DNA of 37,490 bases, taken from assembly GCA_937885075.1 (NCBI GenBank), contig CAKZYZ010000124.1, forward strand, positions 1 through 37,490, given 5' to 3'. Position numbers and translations under genes: made by a program. Positions 10,167 through 19,472 of this stretch are shown here, piece by piece. Numbering within the stretch: the stretch's first letter is position 1; each line of letters begins with the position of its first letter. The notes beneath the pieces were generated by a model that saw only the letters and a program-made list of their open reading frames with translations, did not search any database and had not been told where the DNA came from. The DNA is from an uncultured bacterium. Its GTDB lineage: Bacteria; Auribacterota; Erginobacteria; Erginobacterales; Erginobacteraceae.

Positions 10167-10213
10167 TGCCGTGGTATTTTCAGACACACTGCTTTCTGCT
10201 TCGGAATTTTCTC

Positions 10214-10308
10214 TCCCGAAATACTTCGGGATCCCGGTTTGTCTAATTGAAATTACCGGGTCCCGAAATCCTTCGGGATCCCGAGTTGTTTAATATTAAG
10301 TCTCGGGA
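10214..10308. repeat. Cluster of TCCCGAAANNNTTCGGGA-type palindromes
   Basis: The 18-base palindrome occurs at 10214-10231 and 10261-10278 with different central bases. Shorter TCCCGG/CCGGG and TCCCGAG/CTCGGGA pairs lie around them. The same 18-mer replaces the anticodon arm in the two broken tRNA copies at 19.0-19.3 kb. The gap 10167-10491 (about 325 bases) contains only this cluster, the next inverted repeat and the proC leader hairpin. Confidence 0.88.
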
Positions 10309-10318
10309 CAATAAATCT

Positions 10319-10417
10319 GCCACAAAGGCACAAAGACACTAAGAAAAATATAAAATAAGAATAGACATGGTTATTGAACCTTTAATTCTTTCCTTTGTGT
10401 CTTAGTGTCTTTGTGGC
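10319..10417. repeat. GCCACNAAG-family inverted repeat, copy A
   Basis: The left arm GCCACAAAGGCACAAAGACA(CTAAG) is mirrored by CTTAGTGTCTTTGTGGC on the right, around an AT-rich centre. Related copies lie at 19359, 20790, 23465 and 30430, with a relative at 37361. The flank (AAGTTGCTAAGCTAAGTT) is shared in part with the copies at 19.3 and 23.5 kb. Confidence 0.9.
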
Positions 10418-10469
10418 AAAAAAGTTGCTAAGCTAAGTTCTGATATTGTCACCGGCATTGTTCAAAACT

Positions 10470-18710: not shown

Positions 18711-18769
18711 CTCGTGACGGCAGCCTTCAGGCTGCCACACGATGGCGACCTGAAGGTCGCCGCTACGAA
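18711..18769. repeat. CTCGTAGCGG-type inverted repeat
   Basis: CTCGTGACGGCAGCC and GGTCGCCGCTACGA flank two small palindromes (GGCAGCCTTCAGGCTGCC and GGCGACCTGAAGGTCGCC). The same parts occur in swapped order at 11332-11389, so the two elements look like alternative arrangements of one family. Confidence 0.85.
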
Positions 18770-18779
18770 CACAAGGTGA

Positions 18780-19016
18780 TGAGGCTACCGAATCAGTACA
18801 GTTAATTAATAATACGCACAACAGAGCTAAATGTTCAATGAAAGTACAGAATTATAATCCGACCTGTAAAGCAAAATCCGACATTAGGATTTTAGAGCTT
18901 ACAAATTTTTAGAGTAAGCAATAGATAATACGGTATTTTTGCTTGCTTCATATCCCGCCTGATTGCTATATTGACAATTTCTCAGACAGCAAGAGATAGA
19001 ATTGATTTTGTTTGAT
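18780..19016. other. Intergenic region upstream of the tRNA-Pro locus
   Basis: No coding frame stands out. Two small hairpins follow one another: AAAATCC/GGATTTT (18873-18893) and GCTTAC/GTAAGC (18897-18919). TTGACA at 18971-18976 could be a -35 element for the tRNA region, but the best -10 (TAGAAT at 18997) is 20 bases away, so the promoter assignment is weak. Confidence 0.4.
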
Positions 19017-19072
19017 CGGGGCGTAGCGCAGCCTGGTTAGCGCGTCCCGAAAGCATTCGGGAAGGTCGGGAG
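19017..19072 (+). pseudogene. Broken tRNA-Pro copy with replaced anticodon arm
   Basis: The first 28 bases match the intact tRNA at 19102: the 7-base acceptor strand, TA, the D arm and one following G. In place of the 17-base anticodon arm stands the 18-base palindrome TCCCGAAAGCATTCGGGA (19045-19062), then the normal AGGTCGGGAG. The 3' half is missing. The 17 bases before it (19000-19016) match those before the intact gene (19085-19101) with one difference, so this is an 85-bp tandem duplication. It cannot fold into a complete tRNA. Confidence 0.85.
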
Positions 19073-19101
19073 CTAGAATGTTATAATTGAGTTTGTTTGA
19101 T

Positions 19102-19176
19102 CGGGGCGTAGCGCAGCCTGGTTAGCGCGCCTGAATGGGGTTCAGGAGGTCGGGAGTTCGAATCTCCCCGCCCCGA
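19102..19176 (+). tRNA. tRNA-Pro (GGG anticodon)
   Basis: A full cloverleaf is present: acceptor CGGGGCG/CGCCCCG, D stem GCGC/GCGC, anticodon stem CCTGA/TCAGG with loop ATGGGGT (anticodon GGG at 19137-19139), variable AGGTC, T stem GGGAG/CTCCC with loop TTCGAAT, and discriminator A. No CCA is encoded. TATAAT at 19082 lies 15 bases before the 5' end and may be a -10 element. Broken copies lie on both sides. Confidence 0.97.
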
Positions 19177-19206
19177 TTTAATAAAAAGTTTTTGGGTAAT
19201 CGCAAA

Positions 19207-19326
19207 TTAGCGCGTCCCGAAAGCTTTCGGGAAGGTCGGGAGTTCTGCGTCAGCCATCCCGTTATAACGGGATGACGCCGCATCCGGCACCACCTACAGT
19301 GGTGACGGAGAATCTCCCCGCCCCGA
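19207..19326 (+). pseudogene. Broken tRNA-Pro copy with two palindromic changes
   Basis: The fragment begins inside the D arm (TTAGCGCG). The anticodon arm is again replaced exactly, this time by TCCCGAAAGCTTTCGGGA (19215-19232). AGGTCGGGAGTTC follows, then 64 extra bases (19246-19309) sit in the T loop between TTC and GAAT, and the T stem and acceptor strand resume to 19326. The insert contains the palindrome CATCCCGTTATAACGGGATG and a CACCAC/GTGGTG hairpin. The 5' acceptor strand is missing. Confidence 0.85.
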
Positions 19327-19358
19327 TTAAAGAATTAACTTAGCTTGATAGCTTTTTT

Positions 19359-19456
19359 GCCACTAAGACACCAGGTCACAAAGAAAACTTAAAGGATGTT
19401 ACAGTTATGTTCTTCTTCTTTTTTGTGATTTCTTAGTGTCTTTGTGCCTTAGTGGC
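19359..19456. repeat. GCCACNAAG-family inverted repeat, copy B
   Basis: The left arm GCCACTAAGACACC and the right arm CTTAGTGTCTTTGTGCCTTA(GTGGC) flank an AT-rich centre. The preceding TTAGCTTGATAGCTTTTTT is a relative of the flank of copy A in inverse orientation. The element ends 16 bases before the hom start. Confidence 0.88.
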
Positions 19457-19472
19457 TAATTTATATAAGATC

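Follow-up and report, generated by a model that had tools for sequence, protein, structure and literature searches.

An intact tRNA-Pro gene between two hairpin-bearing broken copies: probable relic of a small GIY-YIG mobile element that targets tRNA genes

The stretch analysed here, referred to as the window, is contig C124 (37,490 nucleotides) of the genome designated G000, an assembly of 4.4 Mb in 434 contigs that is 87% complete. It carries an intact tRNA-Pro(GGG) gene with a broken copy on either side, and the locus is probably an ORF-less relic, either decayed or non-autonomous, of a small tRNA-targeting mobile element of the GIY-YIG (homing) type, with one intact tRNA kept by local duplication. 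In complete relatives a small GIY-YIG gene lies between partial copies of one tRNA gene, together with one intact copy. We also lean towards the wider view that these loci are a form of selfish DNA, present across many bacterial phyla and little noticed so far, in which part of an essential tRNA gene is duplicated, usually with a tiny nuclease, one working tRNA is kept and broken halves remain, their arms exchanged for DNA hairpins. The intact gene is preserved through a local partial tandem duplication, which was not part of what the earlier note on this DNA proposed.

The arrangement described in that note, an intact tRNA-Pro(GGG) between two broken copies, holds to the base (Table 1). A base-level check found the 29-nt 5' block TCGGGGCGTAGCGCAGCCTGGTTAGCGCG twice, at 19016 and 19101, and both 18-nt palindromes lie directly 5' of AGGTCGGGAG; of the three copies, only the middle one is called as a tRNA by ARAGORN and Rfam. 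The replacement of the anticodon arm by an 18-base palindrome is exact in both broken copies, but the sequence on both sides, which had been taken as intact, is so only in part, since the 5' copy degenerates beyond AGGTCGGGAG, with CTAGAAT in place of TTCGAAT, and the 3' copy begins only at TTAGCGCG. The 64 bases of palindromic DNA that had been noticed in the T loop of the downstream copy are indeed present, bordered by AGGTCGGGAGTTC and GAATCTCCCCGCCCCGAT. The palindrome pattern gave 8 strand-matches (4 sites) in the window, compared with 0.27 in shuffled sequences. At Rfam gathering scores no intron was found in the window or in 10 complete relatives.

Table 1. Parts of the tRNA-Pro(GGG) locus and its broken copies, with positions numbered along the window
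Feature	Position	Strand	Evidence
AT-rich leader DNA upstream of the outer 5' copy	18997..19015	+	repeated at 19082-19100 before the intact gene; repeat D1, 48 nt, 96%
5' remnant of tRNA-Pro, with the 5' acceptor strand and the D arm, ending where the anticodon stem begins	19016..19044	+	29 nt identical to 19101-19129
Hairpin TCCCGAAAGCATTCGGGA replacing the 17-nt anticodon arm	19045..19062	+	pattern match; same swap in relatives
Remainder of 5' remnant, with AGGTCGGGAG followed by CTAGAAT, a degenerate T loop	19063..19079	+	repeat D4, 88%
Intact tRNA-Pro(GGG)	19101..19177	+	ARAGORN; Rfam RF00005, 63 bits
Start of 3' remnant: TTAGCGCG, D-stem 3' strand	19207..19214	+	sequence check to the base
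Hairpin TCCCGAAAGCTTTCGGGA replacing the anticodon arm	19215..19232	+	pattern match; same swap in relatives
3' remnant, AGGTCGGGAGTTC: extra-loop region, T-stem 5' strand, first half of T loop	19233..19245	+	identical to the intact gene
64-nt double hairpin in the T loop, between TTC and GAATC	19246..19309	+	conserved insert, same position in tRNA fragments of Pro, Ser, Met, Thr, Ala, Trp and Leu
End of 3' remnant: T-stem 3' strand and acceptor 3' strand	19310..19327	+	18 nt identical to the intact gene

The complete loci carry a GIY-YIG gene of about 80-130 aa among the tRNA copies. The earlier note had suggested template switching or a hairpin-recognising transposase; the protein that recurs with the scars is this small nuclease. 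The DNA between the copies, about 250-400 nt, holds this one gene, and no tyrosine recombinase gene was found between the copies of complete loci. Pfam PF01541 is matched in complete relatives with E values of 8e-16 and 4e-19, the residues of the GIY-YIG motif are conserved in 42 sequences, and the nearest solved proteins are of the UPF0213 type (1zg2, 9e-7, and 1ywl, 8e-6). The ends of the ORF run into tRNA sequence. In locus L058 it starts after the T-loop sequence TTCAA and stops at the TAG within GCGTAG, which is part of the following tRNA copy; the L146 ORF has its stop inside GGCTGAGTAG, and in L359 the start is placed about 6 nt past the anticodon loop.

In the Auribacterota examined, and also in 10 genomes from other phyla (the G044-G053 set), small GIY-YIG genes adjoin tRNA genes or fragments. 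Most of the loci in the G044-G053 set are at most 600 bp from a tRNA or fragment (Ser, Val, Ala, Pro, Leu, Met or Asn), a rate of adjacency that is inflated because these 10 genomes and several of the Auribacterota were chosen for carrying tRNA scars. In a tree of 36 GIY-YIG domains, adjacency to a tRNA takes 4 changes against 9.6 when shuffled, with none of 500 as low, and the small GIY-YIG genes located away from tRNAs (L130, L133, L142, L263, L266, L277, L280 and L282) fall largely on separate branches. The link of the window locus to GIY-YIG rests on these relatives, because the nuclease gene is absent from the locus itself. The genome does have a tRNA-linked GIY-YIG gene elsewhere (L129, G000:C12 13582-16803), flanked by tRNA-Val and by a remnant of tRNA-Asp whose D loop holds a hairpin, and nuclease activity in this genome may well come from it. 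An array-like arrangement was seen at L265 (G053:C363), where a tandemly repeated GIY-YIG gene follows tRNA-Ala(CGC) and the whole unit is repeated, with no obvious tRNA remnant.

The exchange of the anticodon arm is not confined to the window. A similarity search of 39 genomes of the phylum recovered the same arrangement at tRNA-Pro in G001, G003, G004 and G011, with tRNA-Pro uninterrupted in G002; a homoserine-dehydrogenase-like gene lies downstream in the window, G002, G003 and G004. G001 (locus L104) is Ca. Erginobacter occultus of the Ca. Auribacterota, the closest named relative found. Of 44 genomes of the phylum, 6 have the extended motif AGCGCG-h-AGGTC and none has the reversed control pattern. 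One scan of 84,980 species genomes with AGCGCG-NCCCGA-N6-TCGGGN-AGGTC, a pattern that presets the stem by design, returned 28 stretches. Three of them are probable chance matches in coding DNA, as L103, L114 and L127 appear to be, and most others adjoin an intact tRNA, usually Pro, Ala once and Met once. The hosts are mostly MAGs, with the labels PVC, Verrucomicrobia, Kiritimatiellae, Ignavibacteria, Bacteroidota, Nitrospirae, Thermodesulfobacteriota, Kazan, Peribacteria, Gracilibacteria and other Patescibacteria. Presence on viruses was rejected, the sole match on a viral contig (L290) not being beside a tRNA-Pro copy and apparently a chance match in coding DNA.

Among relatives fetched by tRNA similarity alone, every arm that lay between TAGCGCG and AGGTC but not in an intact tRNA has the form YCCCGA-N6-TCGGGR. 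Many unrelated sequences at the arm position, which the earlier note had named as the outcome that would count against it, were looked for in relatives and not found, the arm outside intact genes being essentially always of this form. When 28 distinct arms were compared, the chance viral match L290 included, the pair 7-12 was found as A-T, T-A, C-G or G-C, and the palindrome is thus kept despite sequence change. Some remnants bear hairpins other than YCCCGA. The proposal that hairpins are swapped for, or inserted into, tRNA arms with base precision is borne out by this recurrence in relatives and other phyla; the arm swap is real, recurrent and more general than first noted. Self-generation of the palindrome from the tRNA's own sequence (TCGGGA is also present in this T stem and in the CGG anticodon loop) was ruled out, as the stem is also found with a T stem of CCCCGG (G001) and in a tRNA-Ala (L112).

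Other tRNA genes are affected as well. Partial copies on the same strand and at most 700 bp away accompany 12 of 42 tRNA genes in this genome, 12 of 34 in G004, 5 of 23 in G011, 2 of 28 in G002 and 0 of 27 in G009, and the opposite-strand control gave 1, 0, 1, 0 and 0 in this genome, G004, G011, G002 and G009. Most 3' remnants start in the T loop. There GTTC and GA(A/G)TC are separated by a conserved double hairpin, TGCGTCACC..GGTGCCGCA-TCCGGCACC..GGTGACGGA, with the cognate 3' end directly after it. A gapped pattern of this insert has 11 matches in 13 genomes, all 11 in tRNA sequence, with none for the reversed control, and two-sided changes were found at 4 of its 16 predicted pairs. Double-hairpin elements, short mobile-looking units of two adjacent stem-loops, are known from chytrid mitochondrial DNA. 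The 64-nt insert likewise consists of two adjacent stem-loops, whereas the chytrid elements are mitochondrial and not limited to the T loop of duplicated tRNA fragments. Hairpins were found also in D loops and anticodon arms, and no acceptor-stem hairpin was seen among the cases examined. At L059, L117, L122 and L101, one tRNA remnant holds two different hairpins (D loop and anticodon arm), which suggests repeated hairpin acquisition.

Gain and loss can be followed at the tRNA-Ser(GCT) locus of an Ignavibacteria family (79 genomes). The locus is empty in L344, L345, L352, L362 and L363, filled upstream in L271 and L347-L350, filled downstream in L355, L356 and L346 (the last with an upstream remnant too), filled on both sides in L351 and duplicated in tandem in L359, while only remnants are left in L354 and L360 and only the ORF tail in L358 and L361. 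Of 12 tRNA-Ser(GCT) loci picked by tRNA match only, 5 contain the ORF, the probability of this by chance being about 5e-11 from the GIY-YIG density in G046. The tRNA-Pro locus is empty in G002 and filled in G000, G001, G003 and G004. Patchy empty and filled alleles at one site, as looked for in a free-standing HEG, are thus found at both the tRNA-Ser(GCT) and the tRNA-Pro loci; a nuclease with intact catalytic motif, the other such mark, is found in complete relatives and is absent at the window locus. Between tRNA-Asp and tRNA-Pro in two related Kiritimatiellae, a 5' remnant, ORF and 3' remnant in one stand against the 3' remnant only in the other. In relatives at L119/L109 the outer 5' half starts 20-21 nt after tRNA-Asp, which is the start point of the uninterrupted gene, and it is therefore most likely the original gene start.

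We propose that the element would work like a free-standing homing endonuclease with a rescue copy, its cutting being predicted. The GIY-YIG enzyme would cut the tRNA gene near the conserved loops, and recombinational repair of the break would bring in the nuclease gene and produce the partial duplication of the tRNA gene that is seen in the sequences. As this duplication includes the leader or trailer, one functional copy would always survive. The displaced halves would stay as flanks, in which the anticodon arm, D loop or T loop is observed to be replaced or split by hairpins, with the probable effect of destroying both the tRNA fold and the sequence that the enzyme would read there. Units can then amplify in tandem, lose the nuclease gene or vanish, all of which the comparison of species shows if read in this direction, and the window would represent the stage that follows loss of the nuclease gene. 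In small genomes tRNA genes, which are essential, mostly exist as single copies. One intact gene with broken flanks would be the expected outcome of selection, because an insertion into an essential tRNA gene is tolerated only with a surviving copy. This surviving copy should remain a target, unlike a classical homing site, which is disrupted by the insertion, and this counts against strict immunity. The arm hairpins may be target-killing substitutions, nuclease-mobilised hairpin units or folded RNA signals.

The strongest support from other work comes from SegB, a free-standing GIY-YIG homing endonuclease of T-even phages whose gene lies beside tRNA genes. SegB cuts inside tRNA genes, its preferred motif being RAWTSGAAC, and tandem amplification of a tRNA-Tyr segment depends on it (Chihara et al. 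2026, PMC13096335). In our own comparison the complement of this motif, GTTCSAWTY, is the T-loop sequence split by the inserts, whereas anticodon and D-loop scars do not split it, and the specificity compared is that of SegB. The proposed element and SegB share a GIY-YIG gene beside tRNA genes and tandem units with a tRNA gene, and differ in that SegB is phage-borne whereas the present loci are on bacterial chromosomes with cognate tRNA halves as flanks; arm-swapped remnants and hairpin inserts are found here and are not described for SegB in the parts of that paper considered. In a literature search, with most subscription papers outside its scope, no published description of tRNA-linked GIY-YIG scars in bacteria was found beyond SegB.

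The Ssn family of Neisseria consists of GIY-YIG nucleases that are specific for a site in single strands and go with hairpin repeats dispersed around many genes. The present proteins resemble them in being small GIY-YIG nucleases of the UPF0213 type that are linked to hairpin-forming repeats, but the hairpins are here in tRNA arms rather than scattered around genes. In the fungal mitochondrial endonuclease elements of Allomyces and Rhizophagus, the end of a host gene is replaced and the displaced end is left downstream. An endonuclease ORF fused to the host gene, a duplicated gene end that keeps function and a remnant left behind are the points of likeness, whereas those elements involve protein genes, are usually LAGLIDADG, and have no tRNA or arm-exact hairpin swap.

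Other origins of the broken copies have to be weighed against this. It is possible, if rather doubtful, that the short palindromes are themselves mobile and enter DNA hairpins, such as cruciform-extruding tRNA arms, by a structure- or single-strand-specific nuclease, perhaps the GIY-YIG enzyme acting Ssn-like on hairpin repeats, and survive only with a tRNA duplication. The single exact position (TTC^GA) of the T-loop double hairpin in many isotypes, with 11 of 11 matches over 13 genomes in tRNA sequence, is in line with this, as are the anticodon-arm hairpins that stop exactly at the stem base and the range of targets, which covers D loops, anticodon arms and T loops and no acceptor stem in the cases seen. 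However, the palindromes dispersed through the genome are of another repeat family, the enzyme and intermediate would be hypothetical, and every case is flanked by cognate tRNA halves, so that local duplication is needed under any reading. The remnants could instead be working RNA parts, that is, tRNA-like processing signals or terminators for the nuclease mRNA and for the transcript of the tRNA, with their fold under selection. Their stems are kept through compensatory changes, and with a leader or trailer in common with the tRNA they would be transcribed together with it. We nevertheless regard such a role as unlikely: paired variation is also expected if hairpins arrive as palindromes, no remnant of the window or 10 relatives reaches the Rfam tRNA threshold, and patchy occurrence, tandem decay and nuclease-less copies suggest no lasting host function.

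Partial tRNA copies and palindromes made by template switching are ordinary, and spare copies are free of selection as tRNAs. Plain pseudogenes, in which spare duplicates decayed and common palindromes landed randomly or by template switching, are still a distinctly improbable account of borders and a stem that are identical in many phyla, of a single exact T-loop position, of compensatory variation in both arm pair 7-12 (AT, TA, CG, GC) and T-loop insert, and of the repeated presence of a GIY-YIG gene. The 3' remnants that start in the T loop look like displaced att copies of ordinary integrative elements, which use tRNA genes by way of a tyrosine recombinase. 5' remnants are, however, as typical as 3' remnants, the about 250-400 nt with one GIY-YIG gene between copies is too short for an integrase, and ordinary att copies lack arm-swapped hairpins, which makes this origin very improbable. 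An artefact of metagenome assembly or binning might be suspected from the fragmented and incomplete state of the window genome and from the contigs of G003 and G004, which break at these repeats. We find it scarcely credible, as assemblies made independently for many phyla show the arrangement, contigs of 1.6 Mb and 214 kb (L355, L346) contain it too, and the tandem two-unit L359 lies within a single 3.3-Mb contig (G105:C1), so that misassembly is unlikely.

Returning to the GIY-YIG element as the preferred reading, it is tempting to speculate, although this goes further than we would readily defend, that its nuclease exchanges DNA hairpins structure for structure, tRNA arms giving way to palindromes at exact stem borders and in-place duplication rescuing the essential tRNA. 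This would be an undescribed, cross-phylum class of bacterial mobile element and a natural cleave-and-rescue drive on tRNA genes, and the chances are fair that the exchange of hairpins is in itself new. In disrupting tRNA genes while never failing to leave a rescue copy, a widespread element of this sort would resemble synthetic gene drives built on cleave-and-rescue logic. If the element is as proposed, many of the small GIY-YIG genes and partial tRNA copies with which uncultured genomes are crowded would find an explanation, and there would be a testable system for the spread of hairpins, by arm-for-arm exchange at fixed borders. Both tRNA annotation and assembly could be misled by such elements.

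The intergenic palindromes at 10214 and 10261, which had been regarded as the same type as those in the tRNA arms, proved to share with them only the stem TCCCGAA/TTCGGGA and to belong to a separate composite repeat (TCCCGAAATMCTTCGGGATCCCGAGTTGTTTAATATTAAGTCTCGGGA); their derivation into the tRNA arms was ruled out on this ground. The tRNA-arm hairpins do not match the dispersed composite TCCCGAAATMCTTCGGGATCCCGAG..CTCGGGA, their loops and flanks being different. Palindromes of the general form were counted 75 times in this genome. The dispersed composite palindrome, gcttcggaattt-TCCCGAAATMCTTCGGGA-TCCCGAGTTGTTTAATATTAAGTCTCGGGA-caataa, occupies 10195-10310 of the window and about 75 sites genome-wide, is REP-like and is distinct from the tRNA-arm hairpins. 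REP/BIME palindromes are dispersed palindromic repeats with RAYT transposases; the repeat at 10214 and 10261 resembles them, but is here without a linked transposase, and the tRNA-arm hairpins form a separate set. In five contigs of G031 (C34, C58, C103, C115 and C118; L060-L064), palindromes of the TCCCGAAAGCATTCGGGA type lie inside larger palindromes (GGTAGCCG..CGGCTACC), with no tRNA call there. Imperfect inverted repeats on ..CACAAAGGCACTAAGACAC.. / GTGTCTTAGTGTCTTTGTG.. are present in intergenic DNA of the window at 19356-19459 and about 10315-10420, and another intergenic palindrome type, with the hairpins gcagccttcaggctgc and gcgacctgaaggtcgc, is found at 18716-18765.
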